This document shows, in pieces, positions 5,798 through 58,714 of a stretch of 64,000 nucleotides of DNA. The translations under genes and the position numbers were made by a program. Source of the DNA: an uncultured Sphingomonadaceae bacterium (GTDB taxonomy: Bacteria; Pseudomonadota; Alphaproteobacteria; Sphingomonadales; Sphingomonadaceae); NCBI GenBank assembly GCA_947258815.1, contig CAMYJW010000030.1, forward strand, positions 864,770 through 928,769. The letters run 5' to 3'. The first letter of the stretch is position 1. Each line of letters opens with the position of its first letter. The notes beneath the pieces were generated by a model. The model was given only the letters and a program-made list of their open reading frames with translations, searched no databases and was not told where the DNA came from.

Positions 5798-7225
5798 ATG
5801 GCGCCCGAAGAACTCAACGACGCATTGGCGGATGAGGCTGACGAAGCCGCCCCTGCGCTTGAGAGTGAGAGCCACGACGAGGAAAACCGCCTGAAGGCCG
5901 GGTTCGTGCGCAATGTCCACGAGGCACTGCGCGCAGGCGACACCGATCGGGTTTATGAGCTTGTCGAGGAACTGCACCCCGCCGACATCGCCGACCTGTT
6001 CGAGCTGACCGGCGAGGATTCGCGCCTGCCGCTTGCCCGTGCAATCCGCGATCTGATGAGCGTTGAAGTGATCGCCGAGCTGAACGATCACGTCCGCGAA
6101 CTGCTGGTGGAAGAACTTCCGGCGGAAATCGTCGCCGACATCGCCGAACAGCTGGAAACCGACGACGCGGTGGCGATGATCGAGGATCTCGACAACGCCG
6201 ACCAGCAGGCAATTCTGGCCGAACTCGATCCCGAAGACCGCGAAGCGATCGAATCGGCGTTGGCTTTCCCCGATGAATCCGCCGGACGCCTGATGAGCCG
6301 CGATCTGGTTGCGGTGCCTGAACATATCACGGTTGGCGATCTCATTGATTTTCTGCGTGAAAGCAAAGGCTTACCAACAGAGTTCTGGGAAATATTCGTG
6401 GTCGATCCGCGCCATCGCCCGGTTGGCACCTGCGAACTTTCATGGGTTTTGCGCACGCCGCGCCACATCCCGATCGCCGATCTTATGAAACGCGACCAGA
6501 CGCTGATCCCGGTCGGCATGGATCAGGAGGAAGTCGGCCTGCGATTCCAGAAATATGGCCTGATTTCCGCCGCCGTGATCGACGATTCAGGCAGGCTGGT
6601 CGGGCAGGTTACGGTCGACGATATCGTCCACGTCATTCAGGAAGAAGCGGCGGAAGACGCGCTGCTGCTTTCGGGTGCGGGCGAAGGCGATATTTATGAG
6701 CCGATCCGCGAAGCTTATTCCTCGCGGGTGCGCTGGCTGGTCGCCAATCTGGGCACCGCGCTTGTCGCCAGCTTTATCATCGCATTATTCGGCGCGGCCA
6801 TCGAAAAACTGGTTGCGCTGGCGGTTCTGATGCCGATCGTTGCCTCCATCGGCGGCAATGCCGGAACGCAGACAATGGCGGTAACGGTGCGCGCGATTGC
6901 CATGAATCAACTGACCCGCGCGAACTCCACCCGCATTCTCCTGCGCGAAATGCGCGTCGGCCTGCTGAACGGCGCAACGATTGCCTTGCTGATCGGCCTT
7001 GCGACAGCGGTTGTTTTCTCGCCAACACTGGGCGCAGTGATTGCCGTGGCGACCATCGTCAATATCCTGACCGCCGCACTGGCCGGCGTTGCCGTGCCGG
7101 TGATGTTCGACAGACTGAAACAGGATCCGGCGGTTGCCAGCTCTGTGTTCGTAACGATGATCACCGATTCGATGGGGTTTTTCGCGTTCCTGGGCCTTGC
7201 CGTGGCCAGCGGGCTTGTTGGCTGA
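5798..7225 (+). CDS. mgtE: Magnesium transporter MgtE
   Basis: MgtE N domain, CBS pair and MgtE TM domain (GGNAGTQTMAVTVRAIA); ATG at 5798 preferred over longer upstream ORF. Confidence 0.94.
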   Translation: MAPEELNDALADEADEAAPALESESHDEENRLKAGFVRNVHEALRAGDTDRVYELVEELHPADIADLFELTGEDSRLPLARAIRDLMSVEVIAELNDHVRELLVEELPAEIVADIAEQLETDDAVAMIEDLDNADQQAILAELDPEDREAIESALAFPDESAGRLMSRDLVAVPEHITVGDLIDFLRESKGLPTEFWEIFVVDPRHRPVGTCELSWVLRTPRHIPIADLMKRDQTLIPVGMDQEEVGLRFQKYGLISAAVIDDSGRLVGQVTVDDIVHVIQEEAAEDALLLSGAGEGDIYEPIREAYSSRVRWLVANLGTALVASFIIALFGAAIEKLVALAVLMPIVASIGGNAGTQTMAVTVRAIAMNQLTRANSTRILLREMRVGLLNGATIALLIGLATAVVFSPTLGAVIAVATIVNILTAALAGVAVPVMFDRLKQDPAVASSVFVTMITDSMGFFAFLGLAVASGLVG

Positions 7226-7281
7226 TCGAATTTCCCGTCCGTCCGGCTTGAGCGCGGCGCGCATCGGCCTATCTTGAACCC

Positions 7282-7677
7282 ATGCCGCTTCACCTGACCA
7301 AGATTTCCTTTCGCGCCCGGACGCCCGAAACCTTGCGCGACTGGCTGGAAAGCCATGCCAGCGAAGCGCTTCTCACCACGCGTTTTCTGCCCAAACGACA
7401 GGATGAACTGATCGGCGGATCGCTGTTCTGGATCATGGAACACGCGCTGATCGGGCGCTCGCCCATTGTCGGCTTCGGCAAGGCCGACGACGGACGCGGC
7501 ACGATCCGGCTCGAACCGCGCCTCATCACCGTGCAGACCACGCCCCGGCGCGCGCATCAGGGCTGGCGCTATCTTCAGGATAAAGACGCCCCGCCCGATC
7601 TTGATGGTCCGGGCGGCGAAAGCGATGCCCTGCCGCCCCGGCTGATCGGGGAACTGGCGAAACTGGGGCTGGTTTAA
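7282..7677 (+). CDS. DUF1489 family protein
   Basis: MPLHLTKISFRARTPETLRDWLE...FLPKRQDELIGGSLFWIMEH pattern of the DUF1489 family. Confidence 0.85.
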   Translation: MPLHLTKISFRARTPETLRDWLESHASEALLTTRFLPKRQDELIGGSLFWIMEHALIGRSPIVGFGKADDGRGTIRLEPRLITVQTTPRRAHQGWRYLQDKDAPPDLDGPGGESDALPPRLIGELAKLGLV

Positions 7678-7694
7678 GAAGCCCCGCGCAACCG

Positions 7695-8582
7695 TCAGTC
7701 GCGATCGACCCACCAGCGCAGCAGCGTGTGGGCCACGGCATGCGCGGGCGGTGCGCGGAACGCCCTGCCCGCCTCGCCATGCTGAACCGCATCGAGCGCA
7801 TCGACGACATCGCCGCGTGAGAACCAGCGCGCATCCTCAAGCTCTGTCTCGTCAATCGTGATCGTTGGATCGTCGGCATAGGCATGGCAGCCCACCATCA
7901 ACGAAGATGGAAACGGCCACGGCTGGCTGATGACATAGGAAATATCGCGCACTTTCAGGCCCGCTTCTTCCATCGTTTCGCGGGCCACCGCGCCTTCCAG
8001 CGATTCGCCCGGCTCCACAAATCCGGCCAGCGCCGAATAACTTTGCGGCGGAAACCGGGGCTGACGGCCCAGCAGCATATCGCCTTCATGTTCCACCAGC
8101 ATGATCGTGACCGGATCGACCCGCGGGAAATGTTCAGCGCCGCATTCCTCGCTGGTGCAGGTGCGCTGCCACCCCCCCTTGGCAAGCCGCGTCGGCTGGC
8201 CGCACACCGCGCAGAACCGATGCCGCGCGTGCCAGTCCACCAACGAACGCGCGCCGCCATAAGTCGCCAGATCGGTCGGTCCAAGCTGGCTCATCGTGCG
8301 CCACAGCTTTGGCCCGGCGGGCGCCATGCTGCCTTTGAGATCGCGCGGCACTTCGGCAAAACAGCCGCGTTCACCATCAAGGCCAAGAAACAGCAATTCG
8401 CTTTGCGGATCGGCTTCGCCCAAAGATCGCCATTCCAGCCCGCCTTCGAGCGCGATCACCGGATCGAGCCCGTCAAGGCTGAGCAACCGGGCGGCCGGGG
8501 TCATCAGCCGTGCCAGCGCATCGCGATCGGCGCGGATATGATCAGCGCGGTCCAGCGCGGTCTGGGCAAACCCGACGTTCAT
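7695..8582 (-). CDS. nudC: NAD(+) diphosphatase NudC
   Basis: CAVCGQPT...C zinc ribbon and Nudix box GFVEPGESLEGAVARETMEEAGL with SQPWPFPSSLM. Confidence 0.94.
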   Translation of the reverse strand: MNVGFAQTALDRADHIRADRDALARLMTPAARLLSLDGLDPVIALEGGLEWRSLGEADPQSELLFLGLDGERGCFAEVPRDLKGSMAPAGPKLWRTMSQLGPTDLATYGGARSLVDWHARHRFCAVCGQPTRLAKGGWQRTCTSEECGAEHFPRVDPVTIMLVEHEGDMLLGRQPRFPPQSYSALAGFVEPGESLEGAVARETMEEAGLKVRDISYVISQPWPFPSSLMVGCHAYADDPTITIDETELEDARWFSRGDVVDALDAVQHGEAGRAFRAPPAHAVAHTLLRWWVDRD

Positions 8583-9889
8583 GAGAATCGCTCCATCAGT
8601 GCCATGACATCGGCTTTCAGCGCGGTCTGGAACTCTGGCAGCAAGTCCAGCGCGTCGGGCGGCATGAATTGCACAAATAGCCCGGATGTCAGCCCGTGTT
8701 TCATATCGACCATACCGATCGTGCCTGCCGCTCCGGCCCAGCCGAAGATGCCCGCTTCGGGGCCCAGACCAACCCGGCCACCTGCACCAAAATGGCTTTC
8801 AGGGCCCATGATCGTTGGCCCGGCAACGCCTTCGGGCAGAAGATTGCCGGTGCCGACGCGAACCGCCAGTTCCCCCATGATCCGTGTGCCGTCGATCATG
8901 CCGAAATTGGCCAGCATCCGCAAAAACCGGTCATAGTCTCGCGGAGTGCTGACAAGGCCGGACCCGCCGAACGGATAAGGCGGCGCATCGAGAAAGATCG
9001 AGTTTTCGCCTTTGTCGATCGGCACCAGCCTTTTGGCGAAAACCGCATAGTTCGTCGTCAGCCGGCTTTTCCGGTCATCGGGCACGTGAAAGAACGTATC
9101 GACCATCCCCGAAGGCGCGAAAATGCGGTTCTGCAAGAACGCATCGAAACTTTCGCCCGAAACCACTTCGATCACCCGGCCCAGCACGTCCGAGCCGGTG
9201 CTGTAGACCCATTTCGTTCCCGGTTCGCACACCAGCGGCACATCGGCCATGCCATCGGCAAACGCGGCAAGGCTGCGAACCGATTCGCCGCGCGAAAGGC
9301 CGGGGATTTTCAGGCGGCTGATCTGGCCTGCAACCAGCCCGCGTTCTTCCATCAGCGCCTTGATCGGGCCTTTCTGGATGATCGTATAGCCCAGCCCCGA
9401 TGTGTGGGTGAGCAGATGCCGGATCGTGATCGGCGTTTTTGCCGGGCGCAGATCGGTGATCGAACCATCATATGTGTTCTGCACCTGCATATCGGCAAAC
9501 TTCGGCAGAATATCGGCCAGCGGCTGATCGAGGCCAAGCTTGCCATCGTCGATCAGCATCATCGTTGCCATGCCGGTTATCGGCTTGGTCATCGAATAGA
9601 TGCGAAACAGGCTGTCCGCGCCGATCGTGTCGGTATCGAGAAAACCCTCGCTCCCGCGCGCGACATATTCGGTTTCATATCCCGGAACGCCAAGAGACGC
9701 GACCATGCCGGGAAACTTGCCCGGCCCGACCGAGCGCGCAAACAGCTCGCGCACATGGCTTAGCGCGCCGGGCTGCGTTGTCGCCCATGCCAGCCGGGGC
9801 AGCAGCGCCGCGCCAAGCCCGGCTGCCACGCCCAGCTGCATGATCGCGCGGCGGTCCATCGCCGTTTCCAGCGCCGTCAGCCTGTCCAT
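8579..9889 (-). CDS. Serine hydrolase, beta-lactamase/class C family
   Basis: Tat/Sec-like N-terminus MDRRAIMQLGVAAGLGAALLPRLAWA; SMTK (SxxK) motif, YSTGSDVLG; start chosen at MDRLTALE. Confidence 0.9.
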   Translation of the reverse strand: MDRLTALETAMDRRAIMQLGVAAGLGAALLPRLAWATTQPGALSHVRELFARSVGPGKFPGMVASLGVPGYETEYVARGSEGFLDTDTIGADSLFRIYSMTKPITGMATMMLIDDGKLGLDQPLADILPKFADMQVQNTYDGSITDLRPAKTPITIRHLLTHTSGLGYTIIQKGPIKALMEERGLVAGQISRLKIPGLSRGESVRSLAAFADGMADVPLVCEPGTKWVYSTGSDVLGRVIEVVSGESFDAFLQNRIFAPSGMVDTFFHVPDDRKSRLTTNYAVFAKRLVPIDKGENSIFLDAPPYPFGGSGLVSTPRDYDRFLRMLANFGMIDGTRIMGELAVRVGTGNLLPEGVAGPTIMGPESHFGAGGRVGLGPEAGIFGWAGAAGTIGMVDMKHGLTSGLFVQFMPPDALDLLPEFQTALKADVMALMERFS

Positions 9890-9891
9890 GC

Positions 9892-10968
9892 TCAATCGTC
9901 TCCCGTTTGTGCAATCGCCAGCCTTGCCGCCTTGGCATAAAGCGTTGGCAATCCCGCCTGTTCGAGGTTGGCCAGAGGCCACCACTCACCATCTGCGCTA
10001 TCCGGCCCGAGCCTATCGGTGTCTGCATAAACCATCAACCGCATCTCAAGCGCAAAATGCGTGAACACATGATTGACCGCACCGGCAGGCCGCCAGTTTC
10101 CCGCAAGCGGCGCGGTGCCCGATCCGTCCGCGCGCGCATTCCAGCCATCGTCGGGCAGCGCGCGCATCCCGGCAAGCATTCCCTTTGCAGGTCGTCGCAC
10201 CAGCCACACCGCATCGCCGCGCGCGACCCAGAATGCAGTTCCGGTGCGGGTCGGGCGCGGCTTTTTGGGTGGTTTCACCGGAAAACGCTCTGGCGCGTGC
10301 GCCGCATAGGCACGGCATTGACCGGCCAGCGGACACAGCGCGCATTTCGGCGTGCGAGCGGTGCAGATCGTTGCGCCCAGGTCCATCATCGCCTGCGCGA
10401 AATCACCCGCGCGTCGCTCTGGCGTGATCCGATCCGCCATCGCGTGCACGGCCTTGCGCCCCGCCGGAAACGGATCGTCGATCGCAAACAGCCGCGCCAC
10501 CACCCGTTCGACATTGGCATCGACAACAACCGCGCGCTGGCCAAAGGCAATCGCGGCAACGGCAGCAGCGGTATAGGCGCCGAGCCCCGGCAGTTTGCGC
10601 AGTTCCAGTTCGGTTTGCGGAAATGCCCCGCCGCGCGCCGCCACTTCGCGCGCGCAGGCTATCAGATTGCGCGCGCGGGCATAATAACCAAGCCCCGCCC
10701 ACGCGGCCATCACATCGGCCTCATCCGCCGCGGCAAGCGCCTCCACCGTGGGCCAGCGCGCGGTGAATGCGGCAAAATACGGCGCAACAGCAGCGGTTGT
10801 CGTCTGTTGAAGCATAACTTCGGACAGCCAGACCCGATAGGCCCATTGCGGATCGCCTGCGCGCGAAGGCAAAGGCGATCCCGGCCTGGCGCGCCAGGGC
10901 AGATCGCGGGCGTGTTCGTCATACCAGCCGATCAGCGTGGCGGCGATATCATGCGAACTGGCATCCAT
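9892..10968 (-). CDS. mutY: A/G-specific adenine glycosylase MutY
   Basis: WYDEHARDLPWR, SEVMLQQT, LPGLGAYTAAAVAAIAF, VDANVERVVARLF, 4Fe-4S cysteines CTARTPKCALCPLAGQC. Confidence 0.95.
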   Translation of the reverse strand: MDASSHDIAATLIGWYDEHARDLPWRARPGSPLPSRAGDPQWAYRVWLSEVMLQQTTTAAVAPYFAAFTARWPTVEALAAADEADVMAAWAGLGYYARARNLIACAREVAARGGAFPQTELELRKLPGLGAYTAAAVAAIAFGQRAVVVDANVERVVARLFAIDDPFPAGRKAVHAMADRITPERRAGDFAQAMMDLGATICTARTPKCALCPLAGQCRAYAAHAPERFPVKPPKKPRPTRTGTAFWVARGDAVWLVRRPAKGMLAGMRALPDDGWNARADGSGTAPLAGNWRPAGAVNHVFTHFALEMRLMVYADTDRLGPDSADGEWWPLANLEQAGLPTLYAKAARLAIAQTGDD

Positions 10969-10997
10969 CGCGCCGCTATGGCATTGCCCGATGCGCA

Positions 10998-11603
10998 ATG
11001 GAACGGGACAAACCGCCAAAACCGGGCAAGAGCCAGCGGACAACCGCGAGCCGTGGCAAAGGCGATGACAAAGCTGGCGGCAAGGCTGGCGGCAAAGCGC
11101 GCCGCTATGAACGCCAGCGCGGCGGACAGGCCCGGCAAATCAGCGAGCTGATGCCCGAAATCGGGCGCACGGCGTTTCGCCGATTCGGCTTTGTACAATC
11201 AAGCGTGGTGTCGCGGTGGCCCGAAATCGTCGGCCCCAGCCATGCGCGGGTGTGCGCGCCCGAATCGATCCGGTTTCCGCCCGGCGCGAAGAACGATGGC
11301 ATTTTGCAGCTGGTCGTGCTCCCCGCACATGCCCCGCTGATCCAGCAAGTCATCCCTGAAATCATCGAACGGGTGAACCGCTTTTTCGGATACAATGCGG
11401 TTTCCAGAGCGAAAATCCGGCAAGGCGAGGTTAAGGCGCCGCCTGCGAAAGAGACAAGATCGGCATCGCCGCCTTCGCTCAAGCCGGTTCCGGTGGAGCT
11501 GGGCGAGTCGCTGCGCGATATCGGCGACCCGGAATTGCGCGCCGTGCTGGAATCGCTGGCGCGCAGCATGGGCAACGCGAGCGGGGAAGAGGACGAAACC
11601 TGA
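10998..11603 (+). CDS. DUF721 / DciA-like family protein
   Basis: KRWPEIVG-type core (SRWPEIVGPSHARVCAPESIRFP...LIQQVIPEIIERVNRFFGYNAV); basic Gly/Lys N-terminus. Confidence 0.82.
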   Translation: MERDKPPKPGKSQRTTASRGKGDDKAGGKAGGKARRYERQRGGQARQISELMPEIGRTAFRRFGFVQSSVVSRWPEIVGPSHARVCAPESIRFPPGAKNDGILQLVVLPAHAPLIQQVIPEIIERVNRFFGYNAVSRAKIRQGEVKAPPAKETRSASPPSLKPVPVELGESLRDIGDPELRAVLESLARSMGNASGEEDET

Positions 11604-12277
11604 TGCAGTTCATGCGGATTGCCGCGCTTGGGGTTATCGCGGCGTTGTCTCTGGCCGCCAGCAAGGCAAACTGGACGGCAACGATCAACGTGACGCCGAA
11701 AGGCAGCCATGTGCTTGGCAACCCGGAAGCACCGGCAAAGCTCACCGAATTTGTCAGCTACACCTGCCCGCACTGCGCCACATTCCAGAAACAGTCCGAC
11801 GCGCCGCTTCGCATCGCCTATGTCATGCCCGGCAAAGTTTCGGTCGAAGTGCAGCATGTCGTTCGCGATCCGGTTGATCTCACCGTCGCCATGCTCACCA
11901 ATTGCGGAGAACCGGCGGGGTTTTTCAAACGCCACCACATTTTCCTGCATGAACAGGAAAAGTGGCTCGCCAGGATGCCATCAATGTCGGACCTTCAAAA
12001 GCAGCGCTGGGCACATGGCGCCGTGCCGGTCAGGCTGCGCGCCGTCGCGCGGGACTTTGGATTCTATGCACTGATGGAACAGCGCGGCTATACCCGCGTC
12101 CGGGTCGATACCTGCCTTGGCGATATGAAAATGGCTGAAAAACTCATTTCGCAAACACAGGATGCGACGCGGCTTGGTGTTCCCGGCACGCCCAGTTTCG
12201 CAATAAACGGCGCGCTGATCGAAAACGTGCATGACTGGGACAGCCTGAAGCCATGGCTGAAAGCGGCGGTCGAATAA
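11603..12277 (+). CDS. DsbA-like thioredoxin-fold protein (first paralogue)
   Basis: Signal peptide, FVSYTCPHCATF CPHC active site, GVPGTPSFAINGA cis-Pro loop; start overlaps upstream stop. Confidence 0.88.
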   Translation: MQFMRIAALGVIAALSLAASKANWTATINVTPKGSHVLGNPEAPAKLTEFVSYTCPHCATFQKQSDAPLRIAYVMPGKVSVEVQHVVRDPVDLTVAMLTNCGEPAGFFKRHHIFLHEQEKWLARMPSMSDLQKQRWAHGAVPVRLRAVARDFGFYALMEQRGYTRVRVDTCLGDMKMAEKLISQTQDATRLGVPGTPSFAINGALIENVHDWDSLKPWLKAAVE

Positions 12278-12399
12278 GCGATCCTGCGCTTGCGGGGGCC
12301 ATATATCTTGTGGAGATATCTGTGGGCGCGCAGTAAAGCTGGCTTCTCTCCCCAATATCAATCGGCTAGCTTTCACTTTCTATGACAGGAATTGCACGC

Positions 12400-13158
12400 A
12401 TGAATCGCCTTAACATCCGTCGTCTCGCGCTGGCTGCATTCGCGGCTCCCTTGGCGCTTGGCCTGGCAGCCTGCAGCGAAAGCGGCGGCACGGGCGCGGC
12501 GCTTTCGGGCGAACCGATAGAAAATATCGCCCCGCCCGAAGGCAAAAGCTGGACCGAAACGGTAGAGAAAACGCCCGAAGGCGGATATCGCATCGGCAAT
12601 CCCGACGCGCCGATCAAAGTGATCGAGTTTGCCTCTCTCACCTGCCCCCATTGCGCGACGTTCACGGAAACAAGCAAGGATGAACTCAAGCAGGGCTTCG
12701 TGGCCAGCGGCCGCGTCAGTCTGGAATTTCGCAACTTCGTGATGAATCCGCTCGATCTGACGATGGCAATGCTAACGCGCTGTGGCCAGCCCGGCGCGTT
12801 TTTCGCGCTGACCGAGCAGACGCTCGCCAGCCAGTCCGCGATTATCGACGCGTGGACCAAGGCCGGAGAAGCGCAAGTCGCCCAGGCCGCCAGTCAGCCG
12901 CCTGAGAAACGCTATCAGGCCATTGCCAAAGTTGCGGGCCTCGATGAATTCTTCGCCGCCCGCGGCATCGCCGCCGAACAGGCAAGCACCTGCCTTGCCG
13001 ATCATGAAGGCGCCGAAGTGCTGGTGGAAACAACCAGCAAGCAAAGCGATGAATACGGTATTACAGGAACGCCCGCTTTCGTGATCAACGGCGTCAAGGC
13101 AGACGTGAACACCTGGCCTGAGATCAAGGCGCAGCTTGAAACGATGGGCGCGCGCTGA
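12400..13158 (+). CDS. DsbA-like thioredoxin-fold lipoprotein (second paralogue)
   Basis: Lipobox-like LALGLAACSES, FASLTCPHCATF, GITGTPAFVINGV; start at MNRLNIRRL. Confidence 0.88.
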   Translation: MNRLNIRRLALAAFAAPLALGLAACSESGGTGAALSGEPIENIAPPEGKSWTETVEKTPEGGYRIGNPDAPIKVIEFASLTCPHCATFTETSKDELKQGFVASGRVSLEFRNFVMNPLDLTMAMLTRCGQPGAFFALTEQTLASQSAIIDAWTKAGEAQVAQAASQPPEKRYQAIAKVAGLDEFFAARGIAAEQASTCLADHEGAEVLVETTSKQSDEYGITGTPAFVINGVKADVNTWPEIKAQLETMGAR

Positions 13159-13193
13159 TGATACGCGCGACCTTGGGCAGATAGCGGCCGGCG

Positions 13194-16100
13194 ATGCGCT
13201 TCAAACGGCTCAAACTCAGCGGCTTCAAAAGCTTTGTTGAGCCGTCCGAACTGCGCATCGAACCGGGGCTGACCGGGGTTGTCGGCCCGAACGGCTGCGG
13301 CAAATCGAACCTGCTGGAAGCAATCCGCTGGGTGATGGGCGAAAGCTCTCCCAAATCGATGCGCGGCGGCGGCATGGAAGATGTGATCTTCGCCGGAACC
13401 GCAGGTCGCCCACCGCGCGCCTTTGCCGAAGTCGTGCTGACAGGCGAGACGGGCGAGCGCGAGGAACTGGAAGTCGTGCGCCGGATAGAGCGCGGCGCGG
13501 GCAGTGCCTATCGCCTCAACGGGCGCGATGTGCGGGCCAAGGATGTTGCGCTGATCTTTGCCGATGCCGCCACCGGCGCGCATTCGCCCGCGCTGGTCAG
13601 TCAGGGCCGGATCGCTTCGGTAATTTCGGCCAAACCCACAGAACGCCGCCTGATGCTGGAAGAAGCGGCGGGCATTTCCGGCCTGCATGTGCGGCGCAAG
13701 GATGCCGAACAGAAACTGCGCGCCACAGAAACCAATCTGGGCCGCCTTGAAGACATCATGGCGGGGCTCGATAAACAGATCGCCGCGCTCAAGCGGCAGG
13801 CCCGCGCGGCAGAACGATACAAGGCGCTCTCAGAACAGATTCGTGTAGCCGAAGCGCGGCTGGTGTTTGCCCGCTGGCGCGATGCCTCGCAGGCGGCAGA
13901 CGCAGCAAAGGCCGAAGCACAAGGCGCCGAAACGCGCGTGATCGCCGCGCAAACCGCCGCCCAGACGGCGCAGACACGGCAAGCCAAAACGGCCAAGGCT
14001 CTGGCCGCCACGCGCGATGAACTGGCTGACCGGCGCGATGATGCCAGCGCGCATGGCCACCGCATGGCCGCGCTCACCAGCCAGCTTGAATCAGCCGAAG
14101 AACGGCTGGCCGATCTTGACAGGCAGCGCCAGCGGCTGGAGGCTGATCGCGGCGATGCCGATCGCCTCACCAAAGACGCCGCCCAAGCGCTTTCACGGCT
14201 GCAAACCGAACTGGCCGAAGGCGAAGCCCGTCTGGCGCAGGACGAACAGCAACGCCCCGCGCTGTCCGATACGCTGGAAAAGGCAGAACGCGCCGCACGG
14301 CAGGCGGAACTGGATCTTGCGCAGGCCACCGCCGCACAGGCCGGTGTCGATGCCGAATGGCGCATCGCCGAGGCAGAACTCGATGCCGCCAAAAGCCGGA
14401 TTGAGCGGCTGGAAACCGAGGCAAACCGGCACAAGGCGCAACTGGCCGAGCTGACCGGGCAAGGCGATCCCGAAACGGGCGTCACCGATGCGAAAACCCG
14501 CGCCGAAGCAGCCACGCGAGCGCTCAGCCAAGCGCGCGCGGCATTGGAAGAAAAACAGGCCAGCAAAGCCGATTTGCAATCCGCACGCGATGAAGCGGCA
14601 AGCGCGCTTTCAGCAGCCAGAGCCGAAATCACCGGGATTGAGCGCGAACATGCCGCCTTGCGCAAGGATCGCGAAGCACGCGCCAAACGCGCATCGGGCG
14701 GCCATGGCCTGCCTGCCGCGATAGACAAGGTGCGCGCGGCACCGGGGTATGAACGCGCGCTTGCCGCCGTGCTGGGACGCGATGCCAAAGCGGGCCTTGG
14801 CAGCGCACCTGCAGATCAGGATGGCCGGTTCTGGTCTGGCGCGCCAAATCCCGCCCCCGTGGCAGACAGTATCGCCGCGCATGTCAGCGATTGCCCGGCA
14901 GAACTTTGCGCGCGGCTGGCGCTTGTCCATGTCGCGCCAGACGATGATGGCCGCGCGCTTGGTCCCGGAGAATGGCTTGTCACTTTGTCGGGCCGTTTGC
15001 GGCGCTGGGACGGGTTTGTCGCACGCGGCGAAGGCGGCGCGGAAGCAGCGTTGCTCGAATCGGAAAACCGCTTCGCCGAACTCGAAGCCGAACTGCCCGC
15101 CAAACAGGCGCTGGTGCAAGCCGCAGAAGCTGCACAGATAACCGCGCAAACGCAGCTTTCCGATTTACAGACCGCGCTTGTCGGCGCTGAACGCACCGTT
15201 GCACAGGCAGCTGAGGAAGAGCGGCTGGCGCTTCGCGCGCTCGATCAGGCCGAAGCCGCGCGCGAACGGCTGGCCCTGCGCCGCGCGCAGCTCGATCAGG
15301 CAGCCGGCGATCTTGCCGAGCGACGCACTGCGGCAGAGACTGACATTGAGGCAGCACAGCAACGCCGCGCCGAATTGCCCGATCCGCAGGCGGGCCGCGC
15401 CGCGCTGGATGCCGCACAAGCCCGGCACGATGCCGCGCGCCAGACCTTGCAGAATGCAACCGCCACCCTGGCCGCGACCGATCAGGCGCTGGCCGTTTCG
15501 CGCGAGCGCACTTCCGCGCAGCGCTCTGACATTCAAAGCTGGCAGGCCCGCGCGGGCGATGCCGCCAATCGCCTGTCCGAAGCAGGCCGCCGGTTCGAAG
15601 AAATCGAACAGGAACGCGCGGTTGTCGCCGCCAAGCCCGAATCGCTGATGCAGCAGATCGAGGAAGGCGATAGTGTGCGCGAACGCCTCACCGCCGATCT
15701 CGCCACTGCCGAAGCCGCCGTTGCCCGTACCGAAGAGGACGCGCGCATTGCCGACACCGCGCTTGCCGCGGCACAGGAAGCACTTGCCTCAGCGCGCGAA
15801 AACCGGGCCGGAGCCGCCGCCCGCGCGGAGAACGAAGCAGAGCGCCGCTCCGAAATGGCGCGCATTTCGGGTGAGCGCTTTCAGTGCCCGCCGCCACGGC
15901 TTTGCGAAACATTCGGATTTGAAGGTGACGATGTTTGCGCGGCGGGCGAAGAATCGGCCACGATGGATAAACTGGTTGCCGATCGCGAACGGATCGGGCC
16001 GGTTAATCTGGTCGCCGCCGATGAACTGGCGCAGGCAGAACAGGAACACGGCGCAAACCTGACAGAGCAAGCCGAGCTGACCGAAGCCGTCCACCGTCTG

Positions 16101-52858: not shown

Positions 52859-54022
52859 ATGGCCCGCAGATTTCTCTATGTTATCGCCGCGCTTATCATT
52901 CTGGTGCTTGGCGTGATGCTGGCATTGCGCATCTGGGCGGGTGCTCTGTCATCGGTGGCATTCGTTCCATCGGCCGAGTTTACACAACAGGCGGCATTTA
53001 CTGAGATGACATACTCCGATCCCGATATGTGGTTTGCCCGGCCGGGCCTCGGCAACGGTGATGTTACGCGCTATCTGCCGGAAGGCATCGGGGCCGGAAA
53101 AGCAGGCGCGGAAGAAGCTGGCCCAGAAGAAGCACGCGTTGAAGAACCCAGCCTCGGTGCGGCGGTATTTTTCGTCCATCCGACCAGCTATTTCGAAAAA
53201 CAGCACTGGAATGCCCCGCTTGACGATCCCGGCTCGCGCGATCTGGCGGGCAAGTTCCTGCGCGGCATGGCCAGCCCCTTCAATCATAGCGCCGACCTGT
53301 GGGCCCCGCGTTACCGGCAGGCAACATTCGGCACGTTCATAAGCGATTCGCCCAGCGCGCAGCGTGCGCTCGACACCGCCTATGACGACGTGCTCCAGGC
53401 ATTCGAACACTTTCTGAATACGATTGACGATGCCCGCCCGATCGTTCTGGCAGGCCACAGTCAGGGCGCGCTGCATATGCGCCGCCTGATCGCAGAGCGC
53501 GTTTCAGACGACGCGCTCAGAAGCCGCATCGCCGCCGCTTATCTGATCGGCTGGCCGATTTCGCTTGAACGCGACGTGCCGCACCTTGGCCTGCCCGCCT
53601 GCACCGGACCGGATCAACCGGGATGCGTGATCGGCTGGCAAAGCTTTGCGGAACCGGCGGACACGAAAGACGTGGTCAAAGGCCATGGCCTGCGCCCCTG
53701 GCTGGATGGCTCACGCCGCGACGGCCGCCCTTATCTGTGCTCAAATCCGCTGGCCGGGATGGCCAACGGCGCACAGCAACCCGCCAGCGCCAATGCCGGA
53801 TCGCTGGTGCGCAATGAAGATCACCCGGAAGGCAGGCTGATTGCAGGGCAAATCCCGGCGCGATGCAGCGACGAAGGCTTCCTCCTGATCGGCGATCCGC
53901 CTGAGCTGGGCTCGCAAGTGCTGCCGGGCAACAACTATCACGTCTACGATATTCCGATGTTCTGGGCGAACTTGCGGCAAGACGTTTCCCAGCGAGTCGT
54001 GGCATGGCAAGCCAGCCGCTGA
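52859..54022 (+). CDS. DUF3089 domain-containing protein (alpha/beta hydrolase-like)
   Basis: [48 protein letters not shown]. Confidence 0.88.
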
Positions 54023-54486
54023 TCACAGACAACGCCCCCCGGTTTCGCGCTGCCCTGCCATCGGGCGGTGTGCTGATCGCGCTTGATCTGGGCACGAAAA
54101 CAATCGGCACTGCCTTTTGCGACGCGGGCTGGCGGTTTGCATCGCCGGGCAAAACCCTGAAACGCGGCAAATTCAGCGTTGATAAGCAAGCGCTCACCGA
54201 TCTGATGGCCGCACGTTCAGCGCAAGGCATCGTCATCGGCCTGCCGCTCAACATGGACGGCAGCGAAGGCCCGCGCACACAGGCGAGCCGCGCCTATGCC
54301 CGCAATCTTGCCGCGCTGGGCCTGCCGATTCTTTTGTGGGACGAGCGCTGGTCAACCGCCGATGCCGAACGCGGCCTGATCGGGCAGGATATGAGCCGCG
54401 CCAAACGCGCGGACCGCATCGATTCGGCCGCCGCCGCGGTTATCCTGCAAGGCGCGATCGACGCGCTGACGGGCGGTATGATCTAA
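54004..54486 (+). CDS. ruvX: Holliday junction resolvase RuvX/YqgF
   Basis: [66 protein letters not shown]. Confidence 0.94.
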
Positions 54487-55382
54487 ACCGCCTGATGGCG
54501 CCGCAATTTCGCTTCGCCCGCTACCATCCGGCTGCCGCAGCGTTCCGCATCGGCCCAGACCAGATCGCGCGCGGATGCGTCGTCCGCCGCCGATGCCAGC
54601 GCGCTCCACGAGGCCAGCCGCATACGGTCGCTGGGATGATGCTGCCCGAAACTGCGCGCGAGTTCGCTCGCACTTTCGCTGCCCAGTCCCACGGCGATGC
54701 GCATGAACGCCTCGCTTGATCCGTTGGAAAGGATGCGCCCGATCCGCCGCTTTTCAACATCGAAGCTGTATTGATCGAGCCAGCCCTGCGCGCCGCCCGC
54801 GTGGACAATATTTATCGAAACGGACAGCGCCTCGCCGGGATGTTGCGCATGAACATCGCGGTGCGCGCGGTAATGCATGATCTTGCCTTCTTCGAGGCAG
54901 GAGCGCTCCACAAACCGCAAGTCCACCGGCTCGCCAGACCAGCCGCTGACATCCTCGTAATCAAACTCGTAATAGTCGCTGGCATAGCCCGGCCCGAAAT
55001 AGCCCAGCGTGACGAAATCGAAATTGTGATCGTGCGGCAGGCCATAGACGAAACTGTCTCCCCCGCTGGCGCGCATCATGTGTTCATCCCGCGATGGCCA
55101 AAGGTTTGCGCGCATGAAATAATCTCCGCCATCGGGCGGCGCGAGCATGATGACTTGCGGGCCATAGGAATTTGCGCCGTCATCCTCGCGGTGGCGCGTT
55201 TCAAGCGCGCTGACCAGCATATCGCCCAGAAACGTGCGGTTGTTGCCAAGGCGGCGCAACTGGCGCGCGCTGTGCATCAGGCTTTCCTCATCGCCCGGAT
55301 CGAACCCGGCGCACGACATCGCGTCGACGCATTCGGCCAGGCTGGCAACGGTTTCATCAACGGGCGTGATCACTCTGGGCAT
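54483..55382 (-). CDS. Uncharacterised protein with cupin-like His clusters (third gene of cassette)
   Basis: [41 protein letters not shown]...[22 protein letters not shown]; overlaps the preceding ORF by 13 nt. Confidence 0.8.
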
Positions 55383-56347
55383 ACGGACACCTTGGCAAGC
55401 ATGGGATGGGCTTCGATCAGTTGCGCGCGCAGCGCACCAGCGCTTGGCGCCAGTTCATCATCGGGCGCACGGGCAATTGCCGTCAGCGCGCCAAATCCGG
55501 CCGCAGTGTCAAGCGCCAGAAATTCTCGCAAAGCCTGCCAACGCAGCGAGGCTGTGCCCTGTTCGCGTGCGATCCTTGCAAAGGCCGGTGCGGCATCTTC
55601 GCGCTTCATCCGGCCCAGCAGCGCCATGATCAGTTCGGTGCGGCTGTCCTGCGGATTTCCCGCCGCCTGATAGACAAGCCGGCCATCGGCAAGGCTGTAT
55701 TCGCGCGTGGTTCCGGCATTGGCCTGACGCCGTTGCAGCCGCAGCGTCACCAGCCGCCCTTCAACAGCGCGCACCAGCAACGCCTCGCGGGAGGCATCGC
55801 GCGCCACCACATCACCGGGCACAAGCGAAACGCGCCGGTGGTCGAGCAGAGCTTCCTTTTCGCCGGTGAACATGCGTTCGATACGTTCGGCGCGGGCCGT
55901 TCCGGCCAGCACGCATTCCCACACTTCGCTGGGCGAGAAATCCACCGTCACCGGATCGGGCCGCGCAGCCAGACCATCGCCATCCAGCGCGATCAGCGAC
56001 AGCGTGACATTGCCCGAACGGGCCAGCAGCAACGTTGAAATCGTGCCATCGGTAAAGTGGCGCAGCGGCACATGGCCAAGCGGCGATCGGGAAACGGCAT
56101 CGCTGACCACGCGCGAAAATTCTTCCGCCAGTTCACCCGCGTCCGAACCGTTGGGCGCGAACAACCCGGCAAGCGCGGGGCAATCCGCCAGCGGGCCTTG
56201 CGCGGCAAAGGCATCGAGATCGGCCAGCACGGCGGCCATATGCGGACGCTCACGCCAGGCTTTCACCGCGCGAAACAGCGCGGCCTGCGCGTCACGCTGC
56301 GGAGTATCGTCACTCCGCAGCGCGCGCAGATCGGGATGAATGTGCAT
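55370..56347 (-). CDS. Uncharacterised protein (second gene of cassette)
   Basis: Intact 325-aa ORF, ATG start 9 nt after the peptide ORF; overlaps the downstream gene. Confidence 0.78.
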   Translation of the reverse strand: MHIHPDLRALRSDDTPQRDAQAALFRAVKAWRERPHMAAVLADLDAFAAQGPLADCPALAGLFAPNGSDAGELAEEFSRVVSDAVSRSPLGHVPLRHFTDGTISTLLLARSGNVTLSLIALDGDGLAARPDPVTVDFSPSEVWECVLAGTARAERIERMFTGEKEALLDHRRVSLVPGDVVARDASREALLVRAVEGRLVTLRLQRRQANAGTTREYSLADGRLVYQAAGNPQDSRTELIMALLGRMKREDAAPAFARIAREQGTASLRWQALREFLALDTAAGFGALTAIARAPDDELAPSAGALRAQLIEAHPMLAKVSVCPE

Positions 56348-56356
56348 CCCGGCCCC

Positions 56357-56521
56357 TCAGAACATGCCCTGAGTGGGATTGAGATCGTAGAGGAACGTCA
56401 TCAGGATAACGATCGTATCGTCCGATGACTGAACGCGCGCGGCATCGGAAAGCGTGCCGAACAGGCCGGTCAGGGTGTCGAGATCGGGAAGTGCGTCAAT
56501 ATCAATTTTAGGTAGGTTCAT
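56357..56521 (-). CDS. 54-aa peptide ORF (first gene of cassette; candidate precursor or regulatory peptide)
   Basis: MNLPKIDIDALPDLDTLTGLFGTLSDAARVQSSDDTIVILMTFLYDLNPTQGMF; good SD (GAGGGG) 5' of ATG; same strand and tightly coupled to 55370-56347. Confidence 0.72.
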   Translation of the reverse strand: MNLPKIDIDALPDLDTLTGLFGTLSDAARVQSSDDTIVILMTFLYDLNPTQGMF

Positions 56522-56630
56522 GATTGATCCCCTCAGCAAACAACGAAGCAGGAGCGCTTCGTGAGAGGCAATCTGACCGGCTGGACGCCGACACTTAAAT
56601 TAAAAGATTGTAACGCGCCGCAGGGTGGCT

Positions 56631-57443
56631 CTATCGGTCTGCGACAATGTCATTTTTCATGCTGAGGACGATAATCAGACCGCCCGTTTCGGGCACTGAC
56701 TGCCCCGGCGCACCCTGCACGCGCGCCGCATCGGCACGCGCCCTGTCAAGAATCGCCGCCGGAACGTCCGGCATATGCACAATCATGTCTGCCGCGCCAA
56801 GATGACGGGCCTGTTTCAGCGTCAGATCTTCCGGATCGGCGCTGCTCAGAACGATCTGAACCAGCCCGCCTGCGTGCGTGTCCACATCCGCGCCATCCAG
56901 CCATCCATCGACCAGCGCATCGCGATTATCGGCCAGCGGGTCCAGCACGCCGCCTTCGCCCAGCGCCGCATCAATCGCGCGGCGGCGATCCGTGGCATCG
57001 GGCCAGCGTGCACGCAGCCGTTGCCGCGCCGCGCCAAGCGCCGCCGCCAGCCGCCCCAGCGATTGCGGCAGGATCATCTCAAGCCGCAGCCGCAATGCCT
57101 TGGCCAGCCCGGCGGACGCTCCGCCCGTTCCGATCGCCAACAGCACCGGCGAACGATCGAGAATGCCGGGTACGATAAAATCGCACAGATCGGGCCGGTC
57201 CGCCGCATTTACCAGCACACCTGCGCTTTTGAGGCGCGCAGCATCGGCGCGCGCGCGATCATCATCGTCATGGGCAACAAACGCCAGCCGTGCGCCTTTA
57301 TCGACGCCATCCTGCAAGTCTGCGATCACCAGCCCGCCTGCGCGTTCAACCAGGCGGCGTTTGGCCTCGGCAGCCTCCCCCGATCCCACCACGATCACGG
57401 GCTGGCCCGCAATGCGATGGAACAGCGGCAGGTTCTCGATCAA
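56631..57443 (-). CDS. Siroheme synthase N-terminal (precorrin-2 dehydrogenase/ferrochelatase) with partial SUMT-like tail
   Basis: LPLFHRIAGQPVIVVGSGEAAEAKRRLVERAG; NAADRPDLCDFIVPGILDRSPVLLAIGTGGASAGLAKALR; TTG start overlapping the lysA stop. Confidence 0.88.
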   Translation of the reverse strand: MIENLPLFHRIAGQPVIVVGSGEAAEAKRRLVERAGGLVIADLQDGVDKGARLAFVAHDDDDRARADAARLKSAGVLVNAADRPDLCDFIVPGILDRSPVLLAIGTGGASAGLAKALRLRLEMILPQSLGRLAAALGAARQRLRARWPDATDRRRAIDAALGEGGVLDPLADNRDALVDGWLDGADVDTHAGGLVQIVLSSADPEDLTLKQARHLGAADMIVHMPDVPAAILDRARADAARVQGAPGQSVPETGGLIIVLSMKNDIVADR

Positions 57444-58714
57444 TCTGCCTGCTCCAGCCAGTCCGGCACTTGTTCTGCCGCAAGGATCACGCTTGGCTCT
57501 ATGCGCTGCGCAACCACCGCCCACTTATCGCCGCTGACCATCACTTCGGGCACCAGCGCGCGGCTGTTATAGGTGTTGGCCATTGTTGCGCCATATGCGC
57601 CTGCCGTGCGGAAAGCGCCAAGATCGCCTGCCTGCACCGCATCGATATCGCGCGCGGTGGCAAACGTATCCGAACTCTCGCAGATTGGGCCGACGATATT
57701 AGCCATCATCCGCTCTCCCGAAGGCGCAAGCGCGGCAAAATCGTGCCATGCGTCATACATCGCCGGACGCGCCAGATCGTTCATCGCGGCATCGACCACC
57801 ACAAACGGCGTGTTGGTGGCGCTTTGCTTCACGCGGATCACGCGCGTCAGCAACACGCCGGCATTGCCCGCAATCACGCGGCCCGGCTCAAACATGATCG
57901 TCGCATCCCAGCCGCTTGTGGCTTGCGCAATCATCGCGGCATAATCGCCCGGACCGGGAAGTTCCTCGTGCGCGCGATATGGCACACCCAGCCCGCCGCC
58001 CAGATCCATATGGCTGACCGTAAAGCCCGCGCCGCGCAGCTCGGCCATCAGCGCGCCCATTTTCACAAAAGCTTCGCGCGATGGTTCAAGATCGGTGATC
58101 TGGCTGCCGATGTGGACCGCCAGCCCGCGCATTTCCAGCCCCTCCAGCGCGCTCAGCCGGGCGTAGATCGCCGCCGCCTGATGATAGGCAACGCCAAACT
58201 TGTTTTCCGATTTTCCAGTTGAAATCTTGGCATGGGTGCGCGCATCGACATCGGGATTGACCCGCAGCGCGCAAACCGCCGTGCGCCCCATCGCCGCCGC
58301 GATCCGGGCAAGCTCAACCCCTTCTTCCTCGCTCTCCAGATTGAACTGGCCCAGCCCCACTTCAACCGCGCGCGTCAGTTCGCGCGCACCCTTGCCAACG
58401 CCGGAAAACACGACATCGCCAGCCGGGATGCCAGCCGCCAGGGCACGCTCAAGCTCTCCGCCCGAAACGATATCGGCGCCATAACCTTCACCCGCCAGCA
58501 CTTTCAGCACGGCAAGGTTGGGATTGGCCTTCATCGCAAAAGCGATGTGAATGCTGGGCAAAACCGCGCTCAGCGCATCGCGGAACACCCGCGCATGGCG
58601 TGTGAGCGTGGCCTGTGAATAGACGTAGACCGGCGTTCCCACAGCCTTGGCAATCGCGGAAAGCGGCACGTCCTCGGCGTAAAGCTCGCCGTTCTGGTAA
58701 GTGAAATGATCCAT
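57440..58714 (-). CDS. lysA: Diaminopimelate decarboxylase
   Basis: AFAMKANPNLAVLKVLAGEGYGADIVSGGEL; HIGSQITDL; DLGGGLGVPY; CESSDTFA. Confidence 0.96.
   Translation of the reverse strand: MDHFTYQNGELYAEDVPLSAIAKAVGTPVYVYSQATLTRHARVFRDALSAVLPSIHIAFAMKANPNLAVLKVLAGEGYGADIVSGGELERALAAGIPAGDVVFSGVGKGARELTRAVEVGLGQFNLESEEEGVELARIAAAMGRTAVCALRVNPDVDARTHAKISTGKSENKFGVAYHQAAAIYARLSALEGLEMRGLAVHIGSQITDLEPSREAFVKMGALMAELRGAGFTVSHMDLGGGLGVPYRAHEELPGPGDYAAMIAQATSGWDATIMFEPGRVIAGNAGVLLTRVIRVKQSATNTPFVVVDAAMNDLARPAMYDAWHDFAALAPSGERMMANIVGPICESSDTFATARDIDAVQAGDLGAFRTAGAYGATMANTYNSRALVPEVMVSGDKWAVVAQRIEPSVILAAEQVPDWLEQAD

Follow-up and report, generated by a model that had tools for sequence, protein, structure and literature searches.

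The window analysed here is a stretch of 64,000 nucleotides from an uncultured Sphingomonadaceae bacterium. On its minus strand it carries three tightly spaced open reading frames (ORFs), which we have called A, B and C, preceded by a conserved box and a hairpin. The features of the locus, listed 5' to 3' along the minus strand and with the domains of each protein under its gene, are:

56597..56614, minus strand: conserved upstream box, GTTACAATCTTTTAATTT (consensus ATTACAATCTTTTAATTT), 18 nt, 75 nt before the start of A
56543..56562, minus strand: 5' UTR hairpin ACGAAGC-GCTCCT-GCTTCGT, between the box and the Shine-Dalgarno sequence, just upstream of the latter
56357..56521, minus strand: gene A, 54 aa, ATG start with an AGGGG Shine-Dalgarno sequence upstream; candidate precursor peptide, MNLPKIDIDALPDLDTLTGLFGTLSDAARVQSSDDTIVILMTFLYDLNPTQGMF
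55370..56347, minus strand: gene B, 325 aa, predicted cupin lacking a metal site, with HEAT-like helices; candidate pseudo-enzyme and partner to C
55664..56059, minus strand: beta (cupin-like) core of B, residues 97-228, from DSSP of the model
55391..55654, minus strand: C-terminal HEAT-like helices of B, residues 232-319, with an invariant R269-W270, from the model, HEAT_2 matches and the alignment
54483..55382, minus strand: gene C, 299 aa, predicted cupin of the thiol-dioxygenase type with HEAT-like helices; candidate oxidising enzyme
55026..55034, minus strand: codons of H117-D118-H119 in C, with two predicted metal ligands (H117 and H119, each in 128/128 homologs), aligning with the HDH of CDO_I
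54849..54851, minus strand: codon of H178 in C, third predicted metal ligand (128/128 homologs), aligning with the DIH of CDO_I
54489..54719, minus strand: C-terminal HEAT-like helices of C, residues 222-298, from the AlphaFold2 model

In the window, 9 nt separate A from B, and B and C overlap by 13 nt. C is convergent with ruvX (54004-54486), with a 4-nt overlap, and on the same strand upstream lie two genes that, from their sequence, read as cysG (56631-57524) and lysA (57440-58714). A first-pass annotation had proposed the three minus-strand ORFs, and their coordinates proved to be exact, with good start signals. The same annotation regarded the triplet as self-contained, with an AT-rich upstream region of its own; the A-B-C order is kept in 30 of the 30 best loci of the family, and the upstream region is real and holds the conserved box. 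None of the three proteins gave a Pfam or NCBIfam match above cut-off or a PDB match by sequence, and the sequence search of solved structures returned nothing useful.

We detected C in 74 of 201 Sphingomonadaceae genomes. A profile of A found the peptide in 61 of the 201, comprising 60 of the 74 genomes with C and 1 of the 127 without it. Conservation of the peptide alongside the large proteins was a point that the first-pass annotation had put forward for testing, and it holds. Neither A nor C was found in 126 genomes, and 14 had C without a profile-detected A (Fisher P 2.5e-36 for the co-occurrence over the 201 genomes, shared ancestry being uncorrected). In all 14, a short ORF lies upstream of B; 13 of these ORFs are weak matches to a local profile and one (G157, L147) was recognised by eye only. 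Counted by locus, and setting aside the loci that had been fetched by A itself, A is in place at 119 loci with a C match; where it is not, the locus is at a contig end, the cassette is broken or the peptide is divergent. The gap between A and B is mostly 8-50 nt in the 30 best loci, and B and C overlap in nearly all of them, mostly by 13 or 1 nt. The cassette is genuine and conserved, far beyond chance.

Named relatives carrying the cassette belong to Novosphingobium, Erythrobacter, Altererythrobacter, Croceibacterium and Aurantiacibacter. The main clade holds the unit at a fixed housekeeping locus, in a single copy per genome, and its inheritance is vertical and syntenic in the Novosphingobium and Erythrobacter groups. 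We found no recurring exporter, protease, immunity gene or recognisable RRE domain in the neighbourhood of the sphingomonad cassette. The unit appears to be dispensable, given its natural breaks in three genomes: in G164 it is broken into two halves about 40 kb apart, in G193 B is mostly deleted and in G072 B is disrupted. The split in G164 (L168 and L169, C1 about 1746390 and 1786405) falls inside B, as if a large element had been inserted. Besides, an orphan A-like peptide with no detected C was seen in G019 (L170, 6266-6737), an assembly that is 85% complete, and its B and C may be missing data.

Peptide A evolves as a protein and is under purifying selection, with a median dN/dS of 0.31 over 2,234 close pairs. 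In the main clade it consists of two conserved blocks, the first at about residues 1-24 (PKIDLSSLPDLDTLTGxFGS) and the second at about residues 34-46 (DDxIVIxMxYxY[DE]), joined by a hypervariable linker and followed by a variable tail, an arrangement that is compatible with a leader and a core but not diagnostic of them. Second-clade peptides keep the first block, followed by Q-x-EVGG-xx-C and a hydrophobic tail, and in the distant relatives only the position of the peptide and a hydrophobic, beta-branched C-terminus remain. Using the second-clade profile, the top match among 502 ORFs of an Alteromonas region was the ORF just before B (E 0.0033), and the peptide ORF was also the top match in L208 (E 0.4) and L151 (E 0.017). 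As it was not the top match in several other loci, the assignment of the distant peptides is tentative. No residue suited to a single chemistry is conserved across all variants, with Tyr, Asp and Glu in one clade and Cys in another.

The upstream box matches its consensus at no fewer than 14 of the 18 positions in 93 of 116 loci, compared with 1 of 580 shuffled controls, and mostly lies 60-85 nt before the start of A. It is nearly unique to the cassette locus: when eight genomes were searched with up to three mismatches, the cassette locus was always matched and one further site appeared once. Seven of the eight had the cassette site alone, and no regulon was found for the box. A CtrA site has the form TTAA-N7-TTAA, and we rejected this identity for the box, which reads TTAC-N6-TTAA. 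In six second-clade loci (L148, L157, L158, L161, L165 and L173), a palindrome-like ATTAC/GTTAC-N6-GTAAT/GTAAC is found about 55-75 nt upstream of A, and this may be the main-clade box in operator form.

Regarding the hairpin, we detected it in 61 of the 93 loci, against a shuffled mean of 8.0, and the stretch has a mean folding z of -1.86, compared with 0.08 for a control stretch. In an alignment of 30 sequences, 96.6% of the cells pair, versus 39-54% when the alignment is slid, with compensatory changes in five of the seven pairs. Given that these 30 sequences were picked after hairpins had been seen in the expected place, the tests on the 93 loci, which were picked by the box and not by the hairpin, are the less biased evidence. 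No Rfam family matches the 5' element. The box and the hairpin presumably have a regulatory role.

Protein C was modelled with AlphaFold2 (pLDDT 88.2), and a Foldseek comparison of the model with the PDB gave mercaptosuccinate dioxygenase (8vni) as the best match, followed by 3-mercaptopropionate dioxygenase (4tlf) and cysteine dioxygenase. The best matches of both B and C have TM-scores, normalised by target, of about 0.5-0.6, as expected from a shared core and an added domain. In the Alteromonas homolog of C, HEAT_2 was found with E 8e-5, below Pfam's cut-off. Besides the three His, Y73, W95, Asp176, Gln180, S187 and N191 are invariant among the 128 homologs, which go down to 26% identity, and position 76 is Gln in 124 of them. 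These results bear out the cupin-type non-haem metal site that the first-pass annotation had read from His-rich clusters in C, now represented by three invariant His in a predicted thiol-dioxygenase-like fold. A relationship to DUF693 was discarded, its matches (E 0.07-0.4) being far below Pfam's cut-off.

We compared C with the thiol dioxygenases of the CDO_I family (PF05995), with which it has in common the cupin fold and the three-His site, both predicted. The profile similarity is weak (E 0.0016, probability 16%), and neither C nor its 27 orthologs match CDO_I in Pfam-A. The alignment is nevertheless in register, pairing HDH of C with HDH, DVH with DIH and SVSLNI with SISIHV, and the positions of Trp95 and Gln76 also match. 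Gln-type thiol dioxygenases are named for a Gln, and a Ser-His-Tyr (SHY) outer-sphere motif has been described (PMC8050391); by our reading of the alignment, Q76 of C occupies the position of that Gln. C differs from CDO_I in that the His and Tyr of the SHY motif are replaced, in the extra HEAT-like domain and in having B and peptide A as obligate neighbours. The Ser of the motif is kept as Ser189 in 126 of the 128 homologs, with Thr in the other two, while the His is replaced by Asn191 (128/128) and the Tyr by Met, Val or Leu at position 193. From its sequence and model, C appears to be an enzyme that descends from thiol dioxygenases and has since diverged from them, and it would presumably contain iron.

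The model of B (pLDDT 92.3) also had 8vni as its best Foldseek match, followed by the same thiol dioxygenases as C and by other cupins. HEAT_2 was found in 17 of 27 B orthologs, and the B alignment contains no conserved metal-binding His column. The beta-rich middle, alpha-helical C-terminus and lack of a metal motif that the first-pass annotation had described in B are therefore all present. When deep profiles were compared, B proved to be homologous to C (E 2.1e-8, probability 94%), a similarity that emerged only with deep alignments including divergent loci, the shallow profile comparison showing none. Both proteins probably share one architecture, in which HEAT-like helices follow a cupin of the thiol-dioxygenase type, and B looks like a degenerate, metal-less structural sister of C, which goes beyond its description as beta-rich. 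Neither protein matches a characterised sequence family, whereas the first-pass annotation would have taken a match to one unrelated to peptides as a refutation. Pfam, NCBIfam and PADLOC contain no family that covers the whole of either protein, the only coverage being that of B, in part of its orthologs, by a generic HEAT model; A likewise has no library family.

Among known peptide systems, the bufferins (RiPPs of the MNIO/DUF692 type) are encoded in compact operons with a conserved order of precursor, enzyme and partner (PMC12452194). The cassette resembles them in combining a candidate precursor peptide, a predicted non-haem iron enzyme and a candidate partner in a compact, ordered operon. 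It differs in its order, peptide-partner-enzyme, and in its enzyme, of an unrelated cupin fold with one predicted metal site; in agreement, DUF692 gave no Pfam match with the cassette proteins. The candidate partner is here an enzyme-derived cupin-HEAT protein, compared with DUF2063/RRE in MNIO systems, and unlike the bufferin precursors, A lacks a signal peptide pattern and, in most cases, Cys. Plant cysteine oxidases and cysteamine dioxygenase, which have the cupin thiol dioxygenase fold and are among the structural matches of C, act on the N-terminal Cys of proteins. The cassette would have in common with them the predicted fold and a substrate that is a protein or peptide. It is unlike those systems in that the window peptide has no Cys, and it gives no match to their sequence families. 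An anti-phage defence system was discarded, with no PADLOC match for A, B, C or the Alteromonas homologs, as was a phage origin, for which phage records gave no match and viral contigs no confirmed one. In the open-access literature, we found no paper on the cassette, on cupin/CDO RiPPs or on matching Novosphingobium precursor peptides.

Two of the homologs are on plasmids. On the Alteromonas stellipolaris plasmid CP013927, the order is Yip1, HlyD, MacB ATPase, MacB/FtsX permease, small ORFs, B, C, ABC ATPase and ABC-2 permease. The operon (L206, CP013927.1 56122-80868, at 6761-14929) has small peptide ORFs at 10609 (recognised by eye) and 10836, and all its genes are annotated as hypothetical with the exception of one ABC ATPase. 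It looks like an operon for peptide production and export, the exporter and the peptide being linked by neighbourhood only, and with its exporters and a candidate second peptide the Alteromonas version looks secreted. On a Vibrio sp. plasmid (L207, NZ_CP080241.1, 11204-12624), a truncated B-C-like pair adjoins a Tn3 transposase and genes for restriction-modification, a location that suggests mobility.

We lean slightly towards reading the cassette, from its sequences and models, as a compact RiPP-type system in which A would be the precursor, C would oxidise it and B would be the partner. The N-terminal block of A (about residues 1-24) would serve as the recognition leader and the second block (about residues 34-46) would carry the reactive residues. 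C would be a mononuclear non-haem iron enzyme (H117/H119/H178) oxidising A in the second block, and B, as a cupin-HEAT duplicate that lacks metal ligands, would hold and present A or stabilise C. Expression would be set by the dedicated upstream box and the 5' UTR hairpin. In favour of the RiPP-type reading are the order of the triplet, the overlapping B and C genes, the co-occurrence of A and C, the selection on A and its leader-like and core-like blocks, together with the fold of C, its three His, Gln76 and Trp95 in thiol-dioxygenase register and the metal-less homolog B. The precursor-enzyme-partner order known from the bufferins (PMC12452194) also favours it, as does the setting of the distant Alteromonas homolog, with small peptide ORFs, an exporter of the HlyD/MacB type and an ABC-2 transporter around it. 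A RiPP is recognised by a short conserved precursor gene linked to a gene for a modification enzyme; the linkage and the conservation are present here, and the modification of A by C is what we infer. Genes for export or proteolysis do not recur in sphingomonads, the Alteromonas HlyD/MacB and ABC-2 genes being those seen. Arguing against the RiPP-type reading are the surroundings of the sphingomonad cassette, which showed no exporter, protease or recognisable RRE domain, the lack of a chemistry-suited residue common to all A variants and the missing SHY His and Tyr of C.

Besides, both blocks of A are conserved, which would fit a small structural subunit too. On such a view, B and C would form an enzyme acting on a small molecule, for example a thiol, and A would be its obligate small subunit or its regulator, with the conserved hydrophobic strand of A added to the cupin or HEAT surface. 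Small proteins play such a role in some membrane oxidases. We consider this, the strongest rival, somewhat unlikely. The conservation of A over most of its length and its low dN/dS agree with a subunit, as do the single copy per genome at a fixed housekeeping locus without an exporter and a predicted fold that is that of small-molecule thiol dioxygenases. However, the second clade and the distant loci keep the position of A and change most of its sequence, and the Alteromonas version has two exporters, and perhaps a second small ORF, as neighbours.

Those exporters would suit a bacteriocin-like peptide that is secreted as an antimicrobial or a signal and encoded together with the enzymes of its maturation; in sphingomonads, the exporter would be encoded elsewhere. 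The truncated Vibrio pair adjoining a transposase and the hydrophobic C-termini of the peptides point in the same direction, but the vertical, syntenic inheritance with no immunity gene or exporter, and a selection that is purifying and not diversifying, make such a peptide improbable. The fixed housekeeping position, the single copy and the lack of adjacent exporters suggest that the sphingomonad product is intracellular or generally exported, and not a bacteriocin. Finally, it is very improbable that B and C are non-catalytic binding cupins, storage- or sensor-like, with A as a ligand or targeting tag and no chemistry: the loss of the metal site in B and the incomplete SHY motif of C would agree with it, but the invariance of the three His, Asp176, Gln180, Ser187 and Asn191 in 128 homologs is hard to explain without metal chemistry or binding.

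Returning to the RiPP-type reading, we know of no cupin-type non-haem iron fold in peptide maturation, and the cassette, if the reading is true, adds one. It would also offer a clear evolutionary route, in which an enzyme duplicates and one copy becomes the peptide-presenting partner. As a tentative extension, doubtful in its full form, the cassette may represent a new RiPP class, in which a mononuclear cupin iron enzyme descended from thiol dioxygenases and its catalytically dead sister, acting as a substrate-binding partner, would oxidise a hydrophobic core without Cys. The product would be a vertically inherited housekeeping peptide factor of sphingomonads, cofactor- or metallophore-like, under the box and the hairpin. 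Confirmation of three points, the enzyme, its pseudo-enzyme partner and a role other than that of a bacteriocin, would make this a new class. The cassette is found in about one third of the sampled Sphingomonadaceae and, in the main clade, at a fixed locus, and the function of the trio is therefore directly testable in culturable Novosphingobium, with the locus-specific box and hairpin as a regulatory handle.

Outside Sphingomonadaceae the cassette is rare, with cases in G517, G688, G847 and G1101 and on the two plasmids, and no nucleotide match to it was found in E. coli. In G1101 (L214, 6573-7520), the gene immediately upstream of the B-C homologs encodes a protein of the Cupin_8/JmjC type, and no clear peptide ORF was recognised. 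The divergent cassettes of L149 and L151 adjoin a yidC-like gene, identified by eye, which is another housekeeping locus.
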